DNA from: Ramlibacter ginsenosidimutans
GTDB taxonomy: Bacteria > Pseudomonadota > Gammaproteobacteria > Burkholderiales > Burkholderiaceae_C
DNA: 64,000 bases
NCBI RefSeq assembly: GCF_016654015.1
Contig: NZ_JAEPWM010000001.1
Location: 1,116,001-1,180,000 of the forward strand
Direction: 5' to 3'
Under the pieces are notes generated by a model. That model saw only the letters and a program-made list of their open reading frames with translations, was not told where the DNA came from and did no database searches. Position numbers and translations under genes: made by a program. Shown in pieces: positions 16,228 to 47,581 of this stretch. Positions within the stretch are counted from its first letter, which is position 1. Every line of letters begins with the position of its first letter.

Positions 16228-17160
16228 TCAGGCCTGCCCGCGCAGGCGGTCGATCAGGCCGTTGAGTTCGTCCAGCGAGCCGAACTGGATGGACAGCTCG
16301 CCCATCTCCTCGACGCGCCCGTGCCGCTTCACGCGCTTCTTCACGCGCACTTCCACTTCCGCGGTGAGCAGGTCCGAGAGTTCCTCCTCGATGCGGCGCA
16401 TGTCGCGCGACTTCTCCTTCTTGGGCTTGGGCGAGACCAGCGAGAACTCCGCGCCGATCCTCTTCACCAGGCTTTCCGCCTCGCGCACCGAGAGCTTCTT
16501 CTGCGCGATCTGGTTCGCCGCCGTGATCTGTGCCGCGCGCTCCAGCGCCAGCAGCGCGCGGGCGTGGCCCATGTCGATGTCGCCCGCCATGAGCATCGTC
16601 TGCACGGCGTCCGCAAGATTCAGCAGGCGCAGCAGGTTCGACGCCGCGCTGCGCGAGCGACCCACCGCCTGCGCCGCCTGTTCGTGCGTCAGGCCGAAGT
16701 CCTTGATCAGGCGTTGCAGGCCTTGCGCTTCTTCCAGCGGATTGAGGTCCTCGCGCTGGATGTTCTCGATCAGCGCCATCGCGGCGGCGGCCTCGTCGGG
16801 CACGTCGCGCACCAGCACCGGCACGCTGTCGAGACCCGCGAGCCGCGCTGCGCGGAAGCGGCGTTCGCCCGCGATGATTTCGTATTTGCCGGCGTTCTCG
16901 CCTTCGGCCAGCCTGCGCACGAGGATGGGCTGCATGATGCCCTGCGCCTTGATGGACTCCGCGAGCTCGTAGAGCGCACCCTCGTCCATGCGCGTGCGCG
17001 GCTGGTACATGCCGGGCACCATGTCGCCCAGCATCAGCGACGCGGGCTGGCCGGGACCGGGCCCCGTGCCATCGCCGCCAGCGCCCGCGTTCTCGTCCAC
17101 CTTGGGACCGAGCAGCGCTTCGAGGCCGCGGCCCAGGCCCTTGGGTTTCTTCGTCACCAT
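16228..17160 (-). CDS. parB: Chromosome partitioning protein ParB
   Basis: This is a 310-residue CTP-dependent DNA clamp that loads at parS and spreads to organise the origin region. The N-terminal ParA-interacting peptide (KKPKGLGRGLEALLG), the CTP-binding box GERRFRAAR (from residue 98), the helix-turn-helix (GLTHEQAAQAVGRSRSAASNLLRLL) and the C-terminal dimerisation segment are all present. It lies 13 bp after the RBBP9-like gene and 13 bp before the TPR-glycosyltransferase gene in the same strand run. Three parS sites are 3-4 kb upstream in rsmG and mnmG. Confidence 0.97.
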   Translation of the reverse strand: MVTKKPKGLGRGLEALLGPKVDENAGAGGDGTGPGPGQPASLMLGDMVPGMYQPRTRMDEGALYELAESIKAQGIMQPILVRRLAEGENAGKYEIIAGERRFRAARLAGLDSVPVLVRDVPDEAAAAMALIENIQREDLNPLEEAQGLQRLIKDFGLTHEQAAQAVGRSRSAASNLLRLLNLADAVQTMLMAGDIDMGHARALLALERAAQITAANQIAQKKLSVREAESLVKRIGAEFSLVSPKPKKEKSRDMRRIEEELSDLLTAEVEVRVKKRVKRHGRVEEMGELSIQFGSLDELNGLIDRLRGQA

Positions 17161-17173
17161 CGGAAAACCTTCT

Positions 17174-17713
17174 TCAGTCTTTCATGAGGTCCTGGAGCAG
17201 CACGTGGCCCTCGGGCCAGCTCGCCAGGCCGGAATCGGCGTTGATGTGGCCGCAAGGGCCGTAGTCCATGAACTGCGCGCGCCATGCGTGCGCGAACAGC
17301 TTTGCGCGTTCCAACGCGCAGTACGGGTCGTCACGGCTGGCGAGCAGCACGCTCGCGAAGGGCAGTGCGCTCAGCTCGATCGGCGTCCACGAGGGAAGCT
17401 GCTCGCGGAGCTCGGGACGCTCCACGTCGGGGGCCGCGACGAGCAGCGCTGCCTTCACGCGATGCGTGTTGCGCGAGTGCGCGGCCCACGCTGCGGCGAG
17501 GATGCACCCCAGGCTGTGCGCCACCAGCACCGCGGGCTCGTCGCAGGAGAGCACCATGTCTTCCAGGCGGGCGATCCAGTCGCCGCGCAGGGGATGCTTC
17601 CAGTCGTGCTGCTCCACGCGCCGGTAGCCGTGGCGCTGCTCCCAGATCGTCTGCCAGTGCTTAGTCCCGCTGTTTTCCCAGCCGGGCAGGAGCAGGACGT
17701 TGGCCGGTTTCAC
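17174..17713 (-). CDS. RBBP9/YdeN-type serine hydrolase
   Basis: The 179-residue minimal alpha/beta hydrolase opens with LLLPGWENSGTKHWQ, typical of the RBBP9/YdeN (PF06821) family. The nucleophile elbow is AHSLGC (S67), with the acid in SRDDPY and the histidine in GCGHINADSG. The start is GTG and overlaps the parA stop by four bases (GTGA), so translation is coupled to ParA. parB follows after 13 bp. The substrate of this family in bacteria is unknown, and its place between parA and parB is unusual outside this lineage. Confidence 0.88.
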   Translation of the reverse strand: MKPANVLLLPGWENSGTKHWQTIWEQRHGYRRVEQHDWKHPLRGDWIARLEDMVLSCDEPAVLVAHSLGCILAAAWAAHSRNTHRVKAALLVAAPDVERPELREQLPSWTPIELSALPFASVLLASRDDPYCALERAKLFAHAWRAQFMDYGPCGHINADSGLASWPEGHVLLQDLMKD

Positions 17714-18576
17714 TGCTCTTTTTTATGTAGCAGGCCACCGAGGCTGACCGTCTGTTCCGTCTTGGCGGCGGGACGCGCTCCGGTGCCGGGGCGCGCGCCC
17801 CCGAGGCGCTCGACCATCTCGTTGGCGAACTCCACGAAGGATTGGCTGCCGCGCGCACCGGGGTCGAAGGCAAGGCCCGGGAGTCCGTAGCTGGGTGCCT
17901 CGGCGAGCCGCACGTTCCGCGGGATGACCGTGTTGAACACCTTGTCGCCGAAGTGCGATTTCAGCTGCTCGCTCACCTGCTGCTGCAGCGTGATGCGCGG
18001 GTCGAACATCACGCGCAGCAGGCCGATGATCTCGAGGTCGCGATTCAGGTTGGCGTGCACCTGCTTGATCGTGTTCACCAGGTCCGACAGACCCTCGAGC
18101 GCGAAGTACTCGCACTGCATCGGCACGATCACGCCGTGCGCGGCGCACAGGCCGTTGAGCGTCAGCAGCGACAGCGCGGGCGGGCAGTCGATCAGGATGA
18201 AGTCGTACTCGCCATCGACCTTGGCCAGCGCCTCCTTCAACCGCGTCTCGCGCCGGTCCACGGCCACGAGTTCCACTTCCGCGCCGGCGAGGTCGCGGTT
18301 GGCGCCCAGGATGTCGTAGCTGCAGCCGGCCTCCTTCAGCCGCTCGCTCACCACCCGCGCTTCGGCGATGCTCGCGGATTCGAGCAGCACGTCATAGACG
18401 GTGTGCTGCAGCTTGCGCTTGTCCACGCCCGAACCCATGGTCGCATTGCCCTGCGGGTCGAGGTCCACCATGAGCACGCGCTGCCCGATCTTGGCGAGGC
18501 CGGCGGCCAGGTTCACCGCCGTGGTGGTCTTGCCCACTCCGCCCTTCTGGTTGGCGACGCAGAAGATCTTGGCCAT
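17710..18576 (-). CDS. parA: Chromosome partitioning ATPase ParA (Soj)
   Basis: The 288-residue ParA/MinD-superfamily ATPase has the deviant Walker A motif [10 protein letters not shown] starting at K11, Walker A' MVDLDPQGN, and the DCPPALSLLTLN switch region. It moves ParB-parS complexes by ATP-dependent nonspecific DNA binding. Relative to the usual 255-265 residues it has a C-terminal extension (GGARPGTGARPAAKTEQTVSLGG) rich in Gly/Ala. It is transcribed after a LysE-type gene and overlaps the hydrolase start by four bases. Confidence 0.96.
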   Translation of the reverse strand: MAKIFCVANQKGGVGKTTTAVNLAAGLAKIGQRVLMVDLDPQGNATMGSGVDKRKLQHTVYDVLLESASIAEARVVSERLKEAGCSYDILGANRDLAGAEVELVAVDRRETRLKEALAKVDGEYDFILIDCPPALSLLTLNGLCAAHGVIVPMQCEYFALEGLSDLVNTIKQVHANLNRDLEIIGLLRVMFDPRITLQQQVSEQLKSHFGDKVFNTVIPRNVRLAEAPSYGLPGLAFDPGARGSQSFVEFANEMVERLGGARPGTGARPAAKTEQTVSLGGLLHKKEQ

Positions 18577-19278: not shown

Positions 19279-19956
19279 TTAACTGCCGGCAGCCGGCGAT
19301 CCCGGCTCGATGCGGCGACGCATCCAGACGATGCAGCGTTCGGCCGACAGTTCAGGCACGATCAATTGTTCCACGTGGAACGCTTCGGCTGCCGGCGGCA
19401 GCGCGGCGAGCTCCGCGTCGGGCCGCTTGCCCTTCATGGCCAGCCAAACGCCGCCTGCGGCGAGGGCGCCTTCCGACCAGGTGACGAAGTCCGCCAGCGA
19501 AGCGAAGGCGCGGGAACTCACGACCTCATAGGGGCCGGCCAGCTGCTCCACCCGGTCGTGCAGGCCGCGGAGGTTAGGCAGCCTCAGCTGCACGGCCACT
19601 TGCTGGATAAAGGCGGCCTTCTTGCCCACCGTATCGACGCAGTCGACGTGGATCTCCGGGCAACAGACGGCGATCACCACGCCCGGCAACCCGGCCCCCG
19701 AGCCCACGTCCAGCAAGCGGACCGCCCTGCCCCCGGTCTGTCGCCGCAAGGCAGGCACGGCCGCCAGGCTGTCGAACAGGTGCTGCACGAGCATCTCGTC
19801 CGGGTCACGGACAGCCGTGAGGTTGTAGACCTTGTTCCACTTGGCGATGAGCTCGAGATAGGCGAGCAACTGCTCCTGCTGGCGCACGCCGAGCTCGATA
19901 CCAAGGGCGGCCGCCGCGGCAACCAGTCGGGCGCTCGGATCCGATGCCGCACTCAT
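19279..19956 (-). CDS. rsmG: 16S rRNA (guanine-527 N7)-methyltransferase RsmG
   Basis: The 225-residue methyltransferase modifies G527 of 16S rRNA using S-adenosylmethionine. It shows KWNKVYNLTAVRDPDEMLVQH and the SAM-binding glycine motif LDVGSGAGLPGVVIA. The later segment KKAAFIQQVAVQL is also typical. It lies 43 bp after mnmG on the same strand, the classical gidA-gidB pair. A parS site (19367-19382) is embedded near its 3' end, encoding the AFHVEQ stretch. Confidence 0.95.
   Translation of the reverse strand: MSAASDPSARLVAAAAALGIELGVRQQEQLLAYLELIAKWNKVYNLTAVRDPDEMLVQHLFDSLAAVPALRRQTGGRAVRLLDVGSGAGLPGVVIAVCCPEIHVDCVDTVGKKAAFIQQVAVQLRLPNLRGLHDRVEQLAGPYEVVSSRAFASLADFVTWSEGALAAGGVWLAMKGKRPDAELAALPPAAEAFHVEQLIVPELSAERCIVWMRRRIEPGSPAAGS
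19367..19382. other. parS site inside rsmG
   Basis: The sequence TGTTCCACGTGGAACG differs from a perfect TGTTCCACGTGGAACA palindrome by one base. It is a variant of the ParB-binding consensus TGTTTCACGTGAAACA. It lies in the coding sequence of rsmG, about 2.2 kb upstream of the parB start. Confidence 0.85.
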
Positions 19957-19999: not shown

Positions 20000-21952
20000 T
20001 CATGCCGCCTTCTGCCCGTTCTGGTTCGCAGCTTCGGCGAAGCCCTTGAACTTGTTCTTCTTCAGGTGGACCAGCAGCAGGGAGATGGCCGCAGGCGTCA
20101 CGCCGGAAATGCGGGAGGCCAGGCCCAGCGTTTCCGGTCGATGCTTGTTCAGCTTCTGCCGCACCTCGATGCTCAGCGCCGGCACCTGCATGTAGTCGAG
20201 TTCGGGCGGGAGCTTCAGGCCCTCGTAGTACGCGGCGCGCTCCACTTCGTCCTTCTGGCGCTCGATGTAGCCGGAGTACTTGGCGCCGATTTCGATCTGC
20301 TCCACCACCGGCGCGTACAGCACGTCCAGCGTTTCACGTGAAACAGCGTCGCTCCTCCAGCGGCCACCCTCCATCGAAACCAGCGCTTCGTAGCCCACGT
20401 CGGGCCGGCGCAGCAGGTCGCCGAGGTTGTACTCATGGTCGATTGAGACGCCGAGCACCCTCTTCGCTTCCGCGTCGGAGAGGATGCGCGGATTCACCCA
20501 GGTCGCCTTGAGCCGCTCGGTTTCACGTGAAACAGCGTCGCGCTTGCGGCAGAAAGCGTCCCACTGCGCGTCGCCGACCAGTCCCATCGCGCGCCCTGCC
20601 TCTGTCAGCCGAAGGTCGGCGTTGTCCTCCCGCAGCTGCAACCGGTATTCGGCCCGGCTGGTGAACATGCGGTAAGGCTCGGTCACGCCCTTGCTGATCA
20701 GGTCGTCGACGAGCACGCCAAGGTAGGCCTGGTCGCGGCTCGGCAGCCAGGCTGCTTCGCCCCTGGCCTGCAGAGCCGCATTGAGTCCGGCGAACAGGCC
20801 CTGGGCCGCGGCCTCCTCGTAGCCGGTGGTCCCGTTGATCTGGCCGGCGAAGAACAGGCCTGCGATCGCCTTGGTCTCGAAGCTCGCCTTCAGCCCGCGC
20901 GGATCGAAGTAGTCGTACTCGATCGCATATCCGGGCCGCAGGATGTGGGCCCGCTCCAGCCCGGGCAACGTGCGCACGAGGCCCAGTTGCACGTCGAAAG
21001 GCAGGCTCGTCGAAATGCCGTTCGGGTAGAACTCGTTGGTCGTGAGTCCTTCCGGCTCCAGGAAGACCTGGTGGCTGTCCTTGTCCTTGAAGCGGTTGAT
21101 CTTGTCTTCGACGCTGGGACAGTAGCGGGGCCCCACCCCCTCGATGCGGCCGGTGAACATCGGGCTGCGGTCGAAGCCGGAGCGGATGATCTCGTGCGTT
21201 CGCTCGTTGGTGTGCGTGATCCAGCACGGCACCTGCCGCGGGTGCATGTCGGCGCGGCCCATGAAGCTGAACACAGGCACCGGGTCCAGATCGCCGGGCT
21301 GCTCCTCGCATCGCGAGAAATCGATCGTGCGACCGTCGATGCGCGGCGGCGTCCCGGTCTTGAGCCGGCCCTGCGGCAGCTTCAGCTCCTTCAGCCGGGC
21401 CGACAGGGACACCGCCGGCGGGTCGCCGGCCCGCCCAGCCGCGTAGTTCTGCAGGCCGACGTGGATCTTGCCGTCGAGAAAGGTCCCCGCGGTCAGGACC
21501 ACCGCCCTGCCCCGGAACCGGATGCCGACCTGCGTCACGGCGCCGACCACGCGGTCGCCCTCGACCATCAGGTCGTCCACGGCCTGCTGGAACAAGGTGA
21601 GGTTGGCCTGGTTCTCAAGCCGGCGCCGGATCGCGGCCTTGTAGAGGATGCGGTCCGCCTGCGCCCGGGTGGCGCGCACCGCCGGTCCCTTGCTGGAGTT
21701 GAGGATGCGGAACTGGATGCCGGCTTCGTCGGTGGCAATCGCCATCACGCCGCCGAGGGCGTCCACCTCCTTCACGAGATGGCCTTTGCCGATCCCGCCG
21801 ATCGAGGGGTTGCAGGACATCTGTCCCAGCGTCTCGATGTTATGGGTGAGGAGCAGGGTCTTGCAGCCCATGCGCGCAGAGGCGAGGGCCGCTTCGGTGC
21901 CGGCATGGCCGCCACCGACCACGATGACGTCGAATTCTTCGGGATACAACAT
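20000..21952 (-). CDS. mnmG: tRNA uridine 5-carboxymethylaminomethyl modification enzyme MnmG
   Basis: This 650-residue FAD enzyme, with MnmE, installs cmnm5 at U34 of tRNAs. The Rossmann motif [17 protein letters not shown] is at the N-terminus. Family signatures follow: [45 protein letters not shown], and the C-terminal helical domain. The ATG at 21952 is the family start; an 11-residue extension is not conserved-looking. It heads the minus-strand run to parB. Two parS sites (20330 and 20519) each encode the residues AVSRET within it. Confidence 0.97.
20330..20345. other. parS site 1 inside mnmG
   Basis: CGTTTCACGTGAAACA matches 15 of 16 bases of the parS consensus TGTTTCACGTGAAACA. It is coding sequence for mnmG. 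The downstream bases GCGTCGC are identical at the second copy, giving a 21-bp repeat 189 bp apart. Confidence 0.92.
20519..20534. other. parS site 2 inside mnmG
   Basis: GGTTTCACGTGAAACA matches 15 of 16 bases of the parS consensus. It encodes the same AVSRET residues as the copy at 20330, in the same reading frame. Confidence 0.92.
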
Positions 21953-41831: not shown

Positions 41832-42647
41832 ATGAGCAAGATCATCGTCGTCACTTCCGGCAAGGGCGGGGTCGGCAAGACCACCACCAGCGCCAGCTTC
41901 GCGAGCGGCCTCGCCCTGCGCGGGCACAAGACCGCCGTCATCGACTTCGACGTCGGCCTGCGCAACCTGGACCTGATCATGGGCTGCGAGCGCCGCGTGG
42001 TCTACGACTTCGTCAACGTGATCCACGGCGAGGCCACGCTGAACCAGGCGCTGATCAAGGACAAGCACAGCGACAACCTGTCGGTGCTCGCGGCCAGCCA
42101 GACGCGCGACAAGGAAGCGCTGACCAAGGACGGCGTCGAGCGCGTGCTCAAGGACCTGGCCGAGATGGGCTTCGAGTACATCGTGTGCGACTCGCCCGCG
42201 GGCATCGAGACCGGCGCGCTGATGGCGATGCACTTCGCCGACGAGGCGCTGGTGGTGACCAATCCCGAGGTCAGCTCGGTGCGCGACTCCGACCGCATCC
42301 TGGGCATGCTTTCGAGCAAGACCCGGCGCGCCATCGACGGCAAGGAGCCAGTCAAGGAACACCTGCTGATCACGCGCTACAACCCCAATCGCGTGGACGC
42401 CGGGCACATGTTGTCGCTGGAGGACATCCAGGACATCCTGCGCATCCCGCTGATCGGCGTGATCCCGGAGTCCGATTCGGTGTTGCAGGCGTCCAACCAG
42501 GGCACGCCCGCCGTGCACCTGAAGGGCACCGAGGTCAGCGAGGCCTACCTGGACGTCGTCGCCCGTTTCCTGGGCGAGGACAAGCCCCTGCGCTTCGTCG
42601 ATCCGCAGAAGGCCGGCCTCCTCAAGCGCCTGTTCGGGAGGAAGTGA
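41832..42647 (+). CDS. minD: Septum-site determining ATPase MinD
   Basis: The 271-residue deviant-Walker ATPase has the N-terminal [18 protein letters not shown] and the amphipathic membrane-targeting helix at the C-terminus ([12 protein letters not shown]). It recruits MinC to the membrane and oscillates with MinE. It sits 10 bp after minC and 65 bp before minE. Confidence 0.97.
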
Positions 42648-44605: not shown

Positions 44606-45214
44606 TCAGCCGAAGGGCCGCACGCCGATCCACCAGCCGTGCAGCCAGAACGCGAACACGGCCCAGGCCACGGCGCCGACGACGATCGTGGCCACGGTTT
44701 TCGTTCCGCTCACCGACTTCGGCACTGCCGCAGTGGGCTGCGCCGAGGTGCTGCCCTCCGTGCGCCGCCGCTTCTGCGCCGCGACGTAGTCCGTCACGGC
44801 CCACGCCAGGAAGGCCCCGAACAGCAGCACATCGACCTCGGTGTTGTTGGCCAGCAGGTGCGCAAAGGCCCACACCGCCACGCCCAGCACCATCGGGTCG
44901 CGCACCGCCAGCTTGATCGCGTTGCCCGGCACGTAGGCGGCCGCGACCAGGATGAACGCGAACAGCGTCAGCAGCGCGGCCAGGTGCCGCGTCCATACCG
45001 AAGGCGCCGGCCACAGCAGGTGCGGACCTTGTTGCCGCGCCAGGCTGAAGCCCACCACGATCAGCACGAAGCCTGCAATCGACACCAGCGAGTACGCGCC
45101 TTTCCACGGTTTCTCGCCAATGGCGGCAATGGTCGATGCACGCCAGCCGTCCGCGACGATGCGCACCGAGTGCGCACCCAGAAACAGCACCAGCCCCAGC
45201 AAGAGCAGCAGCAT
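44606..45214 (-). CDS. NnrU-family membrane protein
   Basis: The 202-residue protein has about five hydrophobic helices and the NnrU pattern: FLGAHSVRIVADGWR, GAYSLVSIAGFVLIVVGF, KLAVRDPMVLGVAVWAFAHLLANN. NnrU is linked with nitric oxide metabolism in denitrifiers and is also related to isoprenoid/NnrU-type reductases; the role here is unknown. The ATG at 45214 gives a start right at the first helix. It is convergent with DUF3072. Confidence 0.85.
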   Translation of the reverse strand: MLLLLLGLVLFLGAHSVRIVADGWRASTIAAIGEKPWKGAYSLVSIAGFVLIVVGFSLARQQGPHLLWPAPSVWTRHLAALLTLFAFILVAAAYVPGNAIKLAVRDPMVLGVAVWAFAHLLANNTEVDVLLFGAFLAWAVTDYVAAQKRRRTEGSTSAQPTAAVPKSVSGTKTVATIVVGAVAWAVFAFWLHGWWIGVRPFG

Positions 45215-45663
45215 CGCGAACCCCTTCCTCACTCCGAGCGGCGGACTGTACGCCAACGCGCCGGCACGGCAAGGGTCGCCATGGGCAGGCGGCCGGATGT
45301 TGTCCGCGGCTGTCTTATGGAAGTTCCTTGTTAAAGATAGTCGTAGTAGATAAGGACCGCACCCCGCTGTGGACAAGCGCTCTTTGTCCCTTGCGCATCA
45401 ACGAGTTGCGCATGCCCAAGCACTGTGTGTAGGCGTGCGTCGGTGGTGTCCTACAAACTGGGATAACCCCAGCGAAACGGTCGAGCATGTGGATAAGCCA
45501 GCAGTTGTGCCGGATCGCTCCACAGGCTTGTGCGCCGAAAAAAAATTCTCGGACGCGCCGTGCTGTCGCACGGCGGCGACGCAATGCAGAAATCTCTTGC
45601 CACGACTGCGCGCAGCTCGCAGCATCGCGCGCGGCGGCAAGACCGACAAAAAAGGGGCTGGCA
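45215..45663. other. Gene-free stretch with replication-origin-like signals
   Basis: No reading frame here looks coding. It contains TAG-trinucleotide repeats (TAGTCGTAGTAGATAAGG at 45339-45356), then a GC-rich spacer (about 45357-45367), then TGTGGACAA (45368-45376, an 8/9 DnaA box). A perfect DnaA box TGTGGATAA lies at 45488-45496. TTGCGCAT occurs twice, 15 bp apart (45391 and 45406). The order trio, GC-rich, DnaA box is that described for origin unwinding in bacteria. An AT-rich stretch lies left of the trios and an A-run at 45538-45545. No dnaA gene is in the window. Confidence 0.5.
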
Positions 45664-46374
45664 GTGGGGCTGGACGATCGCGACTACATGCGCGAAAGAA
45701 ACCGCCGGACGTTCGACCGGCTCGTCAAAATTCGCGACCGGCCTTTCACGCCGCCTCCGAGCAGTCCGTCCTTCCTGTCCATGGCCTTGACCTGGATCTG
45801 CGTCGCCTTCGTCCTGTTCAAGGCGTACGGCTGGTGGGAGCAGCAAAAGGGGCAGCGGACATCGACGCGCTCCCACGCCACGCAAAACGGGGAGCCGCCG
45901 CCTGAACTCGCCCAGCACCGGGAGGTCCACAAAGCGCCTGCAGTTGCACCGCGCGAGAACTTCAGTTCATACGACGCGCCACGGCCGGCGGAGGCAGCGC
46001 GCCCGCTAACCGGCGGCACGATCTACCTGTGCCGCGGCTACAGCGGCGGGAGCTTCTGGGCTTCCGACCACTGCAACCAGCACAAGCCCTTGATCGAGCG
46101 GATCGCGAGCGTGCCGGCAGGACTGCCTTTCGAGCAGCAGGTTGCGCTTGCGGAGCAGCAGCACCAGGCCATGGCGGCGCCAGCCACGGGGGTCACGACG
46201 ACCGTCGTGTCCGCACCGGCCGGCCTGCCCGACCCGGCGCTTTGCACGTCGCTCGATGCGCGCGTGAACCAGCTCGATGCGATGGCGCGCCAGCCGCAGT
46301 CGGGGAGCATGCAAGACTGGAACCGGCAGGAGCGCCAGAAGGCGCGCGACGAGCAGTTCCGCCTGCACTGCTGA
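45664..46374 (+). CDS. Hypothetical membrane-anchored protein
   Basis: The 236-residue protein begins VGLDDRDYMRERNRRTF, a basic cytosolic start. One membrane segment follows (ALTWICVAFVLFKAYGWW, about residues 40-57), then a mainly polar, Pro/Ala-rich periplasmic part. The latter has paired cysteines (IYLCRGYSGGSFWASDHC) and (ALCTSLD), ending DEQFRLHC. I do not recognise a family. A GTG at 45664 gives the start after AAGGGG; the ATG at 45688 is an alternative. Confidence 0.65.
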   Translation: MGLDDRDYMRERNRRTFDRLVKIRDRPFTPPPSSPSFLSMALTWICVAFVLFKAYGWWEQQKGQRTSTRSHATQNGEPPPELAQHREVHKAPAVAPRENFSSYDAPRPAEAARPLTGGTIYLCRGYSGGSFWASDHCNQHKPLIERIASVPAGLPFEQQVALAEQQHQAMAAPATGVTTTVVSAPAGLPDPALCTSLDARVNQLDAMARQPQSGSMQDWNRQERQKARDEQFRLHC

Positions 46375-46381
46375 TGCGCGC

Positions 46382-47581
46382 TCACGCGCGCCGGAGCATG
46401 TGCCCGGCGATCGAGGCGGATCCGAGGGCCGCCAGGGCAGCGGCGAGGTACACCGCGTCGAGGCCCGCGACTTTCGCGAGCGCGCCGCCGAGCGGCGGGC
46501 CGAGGCCCATGGCCAGGTCCTGGAAGATCACGTAAGCGCCCATGGCGGAACCGCGACTTTGTTCCGGCGCACGCCGGACGGCTTCCAGCCCGAAGCCCTG
46601 GAAGCCCAGGCCATAGCCGCCGCCGCCGAGCGCGGCACCCAGCCACGCGAGCGCTGGTGCTGGCGCAAGCCAGATCAGCGCCAGGCCGATGGCCTCCGCC
46701 AGCACGCAGTACAGCGCGACGCGCGCGCCACCGATCGCATCGGGCAGGTGGCCGAACAGCAGCCGGCCCAGGATGAAGCCCAGGCCCATGAAGGTGAGCG
46801 CCAGCGCGCCGCCGCCCCAGCCGCGCTCGGCGAACAGCAGCACGGCGAAGGCCGTGATCATGGCGTAGCCGGTGGAGCAGAGCGTCAGGCCCAGGCCCGG
46901 CAGCTTCACGGCGCCCAGCACGTGCGTGAACGGCAGCCGCGGCAGGCCGCTCGGACGCAGGCCCGCGATGCAGCTGGTGAACGCGAGCCCGAGCGCGCCC
47001 GCGGCCAGCACCGCGAGGGCGACGCCGGCAAAGCCGTGCTGCGCGTAGATCGCCGTGCCCAGCGGGGCGCCGGCCGCGAGGCCGCCGAAGAGCGCGACAC
47101 CCATCCACCCGAACACCTTGCCCGCATGCAGGGGGCCCACGCGCATGAGGCCCCAGGCCATGGTGGACGTGATGACGAAGCTCTCGACGATGCCGGTGAG
47201 CAGGCGTGCGCACAGCACCAGCGCGAGCGCGACCCGCGGCGAGCTTGCGATGAAGGGAACGGAGAGCAGGTACAGCGCGGCCACACCGCACACGGCGAAC
47301 AGCCCGATCAGCGCGGCGCGCTTGGGCCCGCGTTCATCGGTCGTGCCGCCCGCCCACATCCGGCCGAACAGCGAGGACAGGTACTGGATCCCCATCACGA
47401 AGCCGACCACCACCGTCCCCTGCCCCAGAGTGTCGTGCACGTGGCGCGGGATGATCGGCAAGGCCATGCCCACCGCGACGAAGCCGACGAACACCGCCAG
47501 CATGAAGGGCAGCAGCGGCAGGAAGGCGGACCACAAGGAGTTGCCGGTCGCGGCAACGGCGGTGCGAGCGTCGGAGGTCAT
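46382..47581 (-). CDS. MFS transporter
   Basis: The 399-residue permease has 12 hydrophobic helices. A cytosolic loop, GRMWAGGTTDERGPKRAALIG, matches the MFS motif A region (G-x3-D-x2-G-x-R/K-x2), and the C-terminal half repeats it as GHLPDAIGG. It resembles the YfcJ/YhhS arabinose-efflux-like group. The ATG at 47581 was preferred because the preceding 49 in-frame residues are charged and Pro-rich. Its substrate is unknown. Convergent with the small gene upstream. Confidence 0.88.
   Translation of the reverse strand: MTSDARTAVAATGNSLWSAFLPLLPFMLAVFVGFVAVGMALPIIPRHVHDTLGQGTVVVGFVMGIQYLSSLFGRMWAGGTTDERGPKRAALIGLFAVCGVAALYLLSVPFIASSPRVALALVLCARLLTGIVESFVITSTMAWGLMRVGPLHAGKVFGWMGVALFGGLAAGAPLGTAIYAQHGFAGVALAVLAAGALGLAFTSCIAGLRPSGLPRLPFTHVLGAVKLPGLGLTLCSTGYAMITAFAVLLFAERGWGGGALALTFMGLGFILGRLLFGHLPDAIGGARVALYCVLAEAIGLALIWLAPAPALAWLGAALGGGGYGLGFQGFGLEAVRRAPEQSRGSAMGAYVIFQDLAMGLGPPLGGALAKVAGLDAVYLAAALAALGSASIAGHMLRRA

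Follow-up and report, generated by a model that had tools for sequence, protein, structure and literature searches.

Our analysis of a 64,000-nucleotide stretch of the Ramlibacter ginsenosidimutans genome indicates that the main chromosome of this Ramlibacter species has its DnaA-dependent origin, oriC, in a gene-free gap of this stretch, away from the site between dnaA and dnaN where it is found in relatives. We assign a probability of about 0.9 to this reading. The stretch as a whole, referred to here as the window, corresponds to C1:1116001-1180000 of a draft assembly of 5,327,821 bases in 26 contigs. The anatomy of the candidate module, its conservation, the uniqueness of its pair of DnaA boxes and its alternative locations in related genomes were observed directly; that replication starts at this site is what we infer from them. 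An initial annotation of the window had offered three options for the locus, a displaced origin, a secondary DnaA-binding locus of the datA/DARS type or a chance cluster, and the first of these is by far the best supported.

Anatomy and surroundings of the module

The module is compact (about 220 bp, positions 45310-45526 of the window) and lies in a gene-free gap (45215..45663, no strand assigned) between nnrU on the minus strand and an uncharacterised gene on the plus strand. Measured from the end of nnrU at 45214 to the estimated start of the next likely gene at about 45664, the gap has a length of about 449 bp, in agreement with the initial annotation. Its elements, all read on the plus strand, follow each other in the order AT-rich tract, TAG trios, GC-rich spacer, DnaA box 1, IHF-like site, DnaA box 2 and right-hand element. 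The AT-rich tract (45310..45337), a putative DNA-unwinding region, has a low GC content, and the AT-richest 40-mer of the entire window (GC 0.33) starts at 45313-45315. It is followed by DnaA-trio-like repeats reading TAG TCG TAG TAG A TAA (45338..45353), with the TAG-trio stretch TAGTCGTAGTAGATAAGG occupying 45338-45355, and by the GC-rich spacer (45354..45367). DnaA box 1, TGTGGACAA, is found at 45368..45376 and has the position and the direction of box R1 of Escherichia coli. These four elements, the AT-rich tract, the TAG repeats, the spacer and the box, were all recovered where the initial annotation had placed them.

In R. ginsenosidimutans the trio run departs from the ideal, with TCG replacing one TAG, so that the TAG-phased run of the consensus is present in part and interrupted by TCG. 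A laxer rule for basal unwinding systems asks for at least three NAN triplets no further than 16 nt from a DnaA box (PMC8287927); the module possesses such a run, GAT AAG GAC at 45349-45357, with a 10-nt spacer to box 1. Box, spacer, trios and AT-rich DNA are thus all present in the order of the basal unwinding element, as had been proposed. A predicted IHF-like site, CATCAACGAGTTG (45396..45408), agrees at 8 of 9 positions with WATCAANNNNTTR, which we take to be the IHF consensus for scoring; this site was absent from the earlier description. DnaA box 2 (45488..45496) is a perfect TGTGGATAA, and its start lies 120 bp from that of box 1, the distance noted before. The conserved right-hand element GTTGTGCCGGATCGCTCCACAGG (45504..45526) contains an inverted half DnaA box (CCTGTGGA). 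Two strong DnaA boxes, at 45368 and 45488, and no more than these are present in the module, both in one intergenic stretch; this low number and the interrupted trios count against an origin. A direct repeat, TTGCGCAT, does exist as had been claimed, with copies at 45391 and 45406, but it looks incidental: relatives retain just the IHF-like word ATCAANNNNTTR, and we rejected the repeat as a functional feature.

Among the neighbouring genes, nnrU (44606..45214, minus strand) was identified by its match to Pfam PF07298 NnrU (E 4.9e-57). The gene on the other flank (45667..46374, plus strand, start approximate) encodes a protein for which a Pfam search with an E cut-off of 0.001 returned no match; homologues are present at a few of the relatives' module loci. 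Beyond it lies a gene for an MFS transporter (46382..47578, minus strand), a flank common to part of the clade to which the genome under study belongs. The minD gene (41832..42647, plus strand), for which MinD matches were obtained in relatives as well, and the minE gene that follows it up to 42985 (identified by eye) are located 2-4 kb from the module. The records of R. pallidus and R. alkalitolerans likewise show the module less than 10 kb from minD. Further away are parB (16228-17160), parA (17710-18576) and rsmG/gidB (19279-19956), all on the minus strand and assigned by Pfam, and gidA/mnmG, which comes after rsmG and extends to about 21985 (assigned by eye from the translated open reading frame). 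Scored against the generally known parS consensus, a parS-like site with one mismatch, TGTTCCACGTGGAACG, was found at 19367..19382 on the plus strand, and weaker ones with three mismatches each at 20330 and 20519; all three fall within rsmG and gidA. The parS-like sites are 25-26 kb from the module, and the parA, parB, rsmG, gidA and parS-like group as a whole is 23-29 kb from it.

Proximity to dnaA has been described as usual for origins and not as universal (PMC10225481), and adjacency to dnaA, which an oriC does not require, is not found in the R. ginsenosidimutans genome. Its sole full-length dnaA gene is present on another contig (C12:38215, minus strand); a second, weak DnaA-domain match is on contig C25. 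Box 1 is separated by 26,022 bases from the end of contig C1. In two relatives (G012 and G059), the DNA between the module and dnaA includes some of the sequence that makes up the final 26 kb of C1 and the initial 38 kb of C12, so the ends of the two contigs probably face each other; if they join, dnaA would probably be about 64 kb or more away from the module. Compared with G012 and G059, the interval between oriC and dnaA (C1:1161001-1187390 and C12:1-38000) shows little conservation and is scrambled. Outside this interval, beyond oriC (checked in G059) and beyond dnaA, the gene order is largely collinear. From these comparisons, the interval between the origin and dnaA appears to be a rearrangement hotspot.

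Distribution of the module in the genus and the family

The word TTATNCACA occurs once in the 64-kb window, against 0.17 occurrences expected. Across the 5.33-Mb assembly, a scan that covered the TGTGGANAA pattern, other box variants aside, yielded 20 sites, and the two in the module form the only pair within 1 kb; when 20 sites were placed at random in 20,000 trials, some pair fell within 200 bp in 1.5% of them. Conservation is much stronger evidence than such word counts. A BLAST search with positions 45230-45640 gave matches in 42 of 60 genomes of the genus, and the box pair TGTGGANAA-N108..113-TGTGGANAA was detected in 48 of the 60, while the same pattern read backwards, used as a control, gave 0 matches in both the genus and the family tables (inspected by eye). 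A lack of conservation in relatives, which the initial annotation had named as an argument against its own proposal, is hence not what we found. We aligned 31 genus modules from 28 of 30 loci, admitting box pairs at a spacing of 117-121 and dropping two loci (L048 and L052) in which one box is off the strict form. All 31 have a distance of 119 or 120 nt between the starts of the two boxes, and the columns that stand out as kept are those of the trios, of both boxes and of the right-hand element.

The location of the module relative to dnaA was tabulated by hand from the BLAST and pattern results (G026, G029 and G034, missed by the pattern, were entered from BLAST). Both loci are on one contig in 35 genomes: the module is beside dnaA, that is, under 1.5 kb from the DnaA-domain match, in 20, and displaced in 16, with one genome (G058) contributing to both numbers. 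For 14 of the 20 dnaA-adjacent genomes we read the sequence of the dnaA-dnaN gap itself, and the unwinding side of the module faces dnaN. The displaced modules are 6.1-79.8 kb from dnaA and always downstream of it; 13 of the 16 are oriented towards dnaA in the way that the dnaA-adjacent ones are. For the remaining genus genomes, module and dnaA are on different contigs in 12 (the genome under study included), one of the two was found in 10, and neither was found in 3. Nine of the 60 genomes gave no match by either box pattern or BLAST. Three of these (G002, G047 and G049) were later seen to have variant forms of the module, and G035 has a lone box; in G033, G036, G041, G043 and G048, whose genomes are 75-85% complete, no module was found. 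The variant of G002, which the box pattern had missed, is located 23 kb from dnaA and has an altered box 1 and the right-hand element. Tandemly duplicated modules, 331-484 bp apart, are present at G001:C1:386467/386853, G016:C2:109347/109831 and G039:C245:15205/15536.

Outside the genus, the initial annotation had assumed that oriC is next to dnaA in most Burkholderiales, and this fails in the part of the family that we checked. The box pair was found in 129 of 299 family genomes. For 34 non-genus genomes, hand-matched among the matches listed and with one module taken from each multi-module genome, the module is beside dnaA in 5 and 8.5-185 kb away in 29 (median 56 kb, distances that leave out different-contig cases and G166, whose match is near a contig end). 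Displacement of the module is thus common among the family genomes checked. At least two box pairs were counted by eye in 39 of the 129 module-bearing family genomes, a number that includes at least one match that is not module-like (on C8 of G161) and one genome (G259) whose two copies are nearly identical. Four sampled members of one genus, g46 (G104, G209, G282 and G343), each possess two modules about 98-102 kb apart; other genomes have copies 0.3-6.6 kb apart. Among 106 modules that are distinct in sequence, yet related by descent, 98 have TAGTAG no more than 60 nt upstream of box 1. The best IHF-like site follows box 1 at an offset of 18 or 19 in 85 of the 106, and its score reaches 8-9 of 9 in 52, compared with about 1% of shuffles.

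Strand skew, a minimum of which at a distant dnaA would have refuted the proposal according to the initial annotation, was too weak or too dominated by gene orientation in all genomes examined to place the origin, and we do not use it as support. In the window, the cumulative GC skew declines until about 48-50 kb and hardly changes beyond that. Along the 226 kb of contig C1 that we followed, the cumulative curve has its minimum at 1184799, which is 23 kb beyond the module and comes after a nearly flat stretch, and the skew at four-fold sites, with the contribution of the gene strand removed, does not turn to positive at this minimum. Cumulative skew was also computed along contig C12, with the same outcome; the strand skew of these genomes is close to zero. 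G012 has a dip of the raw skew at the module and a slightly lower one about 30 kb beyond dnaA; G059 has no minimum at the module or at dnaA, and the minima of G072 and G340 are at neither place. In twenty 20-kb samples of G057, the skew changes sign roughly near 2 Mb, with exceptions, and cannot separate the module from dnaA because both are near 2 Mb and 23 kb apart. Counts of KOPS motifs were too few to use.

The dnaA-dnaN site and a proposed route of relocation

In the R. ginsenosidimutans genome, the gap between dnaA and dnaN measures 305 bp and dnaN (identified by eye) is still directly beside dnaA, so that a simple insertion of DNA between dnaA and oriC does not account for the displacement. 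We searched this gap for a DnaA box and for the trio word CTACTA, and neither is present. The same two patterns are absent from the dnaA-dnaN gap of G002, G003, G008, G012, G013, G014 and G018, and likewise from that of G023, G034, G040, G044, G045 and G055. Three further genomes with a displaced module (G006, G011 and G057) have a single box left at dnaA-dnaN, and the trios beside the leftover box of G057 look decayed. G058 possesses two complete modules in opposite directions, 29 kb apart on one contig of 4,466,211 bases (C1:2357492 and C1:2386166; loci L355 and L067). One of them sits at dnaA-dnaN, and the other, 29 kb off, has the trios TAGTAGTAGTAG and the right-hand element; judged by these sequences, G058 might have a natural double-origin chromosome. 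The dnaA-rpmH gap of R. ginsenosidimutans, which lies upstream of dnaA, has one perfect DnaA box (C12:39165), and a box is found at about the same place in 9 of 10 genomes compared; it perhaps serves dnaA autoregulation.

To place these states on a phylogeny, we used a tree of DnaA and DnaN with 36 rows out of the 60 genomes (of the 53 genomes in which dnaA was matched, 37 had a dnaA locus available). The tree omits G059, in which the DnaA motif was not found, and leaves G051 and G043, whose dnaA loci end early, unlabelled; the labels reflect the content of the dnaA-dnaN gap, except that G026 and G027 count as beside dnaA by position and G035 is labelled from one box. Eleven genomes without a module at dnaA-dnaN, that of R. 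ginsenosidimutans included, form one clade with a support of 100/98. The fewest changes that the tree allows are six, of which well-supported branches force two, and 21 of the 33 inner branches are weak. A single shared relocation for the whole genus was rejected, since the tree needs at least six changes, though just two are forced; several relocations within the genus are likely from these data.

The flanks of the displaced modules were searched over about 1.5 kb on each side. The nnrU gene is beside the module in 8 of 10 clade members tested (G002 was left out), often together with the MFS gene; G018 has the MFS flank only, and G040 has neither. Since neither flank was found in G003, G006, G011, G055 and G057, the address of the module differs in these genomes.

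We suggest that in an ancestor of the clade of R. ginsenosidimutans the module would have been established in the gap between nnrU and the MFS gene, near minCDE and parABS, and would have been lost from dnaA-dnaN, probably via a two-copy stage such as one relative still has. The contents of the dnaA-dnaN gaps point to such a copy-then-decay route. A broader version of this proposal, which we put forward tentatively and consider doubtful at present, is that the origin of the family might be a cassette of about 220 bp that has been readdressed repeatedly: a second full oriC would arise 0.3-180 kb away from dnaA or from the first copy, both would be carried temporarily, and the old copy would decay. 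Some living species, G058 and others among the 39 of 129 genomes with at least two box pairs, might then be natural double-origin bacteria.

Known origins, alternative readings and implications

The module resembles two well-studied types of origin. With the oriC of E. coli (NC_000913.3:3925744-3925975; L354), it shares an AT-rich tract followed by a rightward TGTGGATAA box, R1, and an IHF-like word, which scores 7 of 9 and begins 18 nt after R1 in E. coli and is a predicted site at an offset of 18-19 nt in most of the 106 modules. When the 75-nt left halves of the two were aligned, 2 of 2000 shuffles that preserved the box attained the observed score; this alignment has a gap inside the box and is not strictly box-anchored. 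The oriC of E. coli is also separate from dnaA (PMC8287927). In contrast to E. coli oriC, the Ramlibacter module possesses TAG trios and a second strong box 120 nt downstream in the same direction, and a single GATC (in 45235-45640) instead of the many GATC sites of SeqA/Dam control. It is flanked by nnrU and the uncharacterised gene, whereas mnmG and mioC flank the origin of E. coli; gidA/mnmG adjoins oriC there and is about 23 kb from the module here.

Basal unwinding systems, as described for Bacillus subtilis and other bacteria, consist of a DnaA box plus DnaA-trios (PMC8287927). The module repeats their arrangement, from the DnaA box over a short GC-rich spacer to the trio repeats and the AT-rich DNA, and in sister species it occupies the dnaA-dnaN gap, its unwinding side facing dnaN; it differs by the second box 120 nt off, the IHF-like site and its displacement from dnaA. 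Chromosomes with putative double or bipartite origins are known as well (PMC4403523). Two origin-like modules per chromosome, as in G058, are a parallel in relatives; the genome under study has one module, and the relatives' copies are of the same kind and 0.3 to about 100 kb apart.

By analogy with these systems, DnaA would bind box 1 and box 2, and IHF would bend the DNA between the boxes and aid the loading of DnaA. An oligomer of DnaA-ATP would extend from box 1 across the GC-rich spacer onto the single-stranded TAG trios; the AT-rich tract would open, and the helicase would be loaded there.

Other readings of the locus were weighed against an origin. The module could be a regulatory locus of the datA or DARS type that binds DnaA and IHF and tunes the level of DnaA-ATP, in which case replication would start at another site. 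In favour of this, datA also combines DnaA boxes with an IHF site, the module is located away from dnaA, and some family genomes have two modules; a datA or DARS locus is a cluster of DnaA boxes additional to an oriC that is located elsewhere. To the best of our knowledge, however, neither datA nor DARS possesses an unwinding tract with trios such as that of the module, the assembly holds no second candidate of this type beside the sole TGTGGANAA pair within 1 kb, and the module occupies the usual place of an origin, beside dnaA, in 20 sister genomes. We have set this reading aside on the grounds of uniqueness and conservation and consider it improbable.

We regard it as very improbable that the module is a second or relic origin copy that is silent, with replication starting at an unrecognised site near dnaA. 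The perfect box upstream of dnaA (C12:39165), the coexistence of two modules in G058 and the skew dip beyond dnaA in G012 would fit such a state of affairs. The dnaA-dnaN gap of R. ginsenosidimutans lacks both a box and the CTACTA word, however, and the displaced module retains all conserved elements. Decay, the expected fate of a silent copy, was observed at dnaA-dnaN instead. A chance cluster of DnaA-box-like words, the single words of which do occur 20 times in the genome, is ruled out by conservation, as spacing, trios, IHF-like site and right-hand element are kept in the genus and in a large part of the family and the backwards control gave 0.

As an oriC, the module is ordinary in kind, and an oriC away from dnaA is already known from E. 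coli. The notable part is the relocation within one genus, together with the many two-module relatives. Our literature search, which was limited, found no published Ramlibacter origin and no publication that combines oriC, Comamonas and DnaA box; among the matches listed, judged from titles and the starts of abstracts, no report of an oriC moving within a genus was found. The position of the origin is usually treated as stable across large bacterial groups, and here it appears to vary among the species of a single genus. The former site is variously bare, decayed or occupied, so that the way in which a chromosome swaps its origin can be read from the sequence and is testable in culturable bacteria. 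The default placement of oriC at dnaA would be wrong for the R. ginsenosidimutans genome and for most of the 34 non-genus family genomes checked, and the spacing of DnaA boxes, trios and IHF site can locate origins where GC skew fails.
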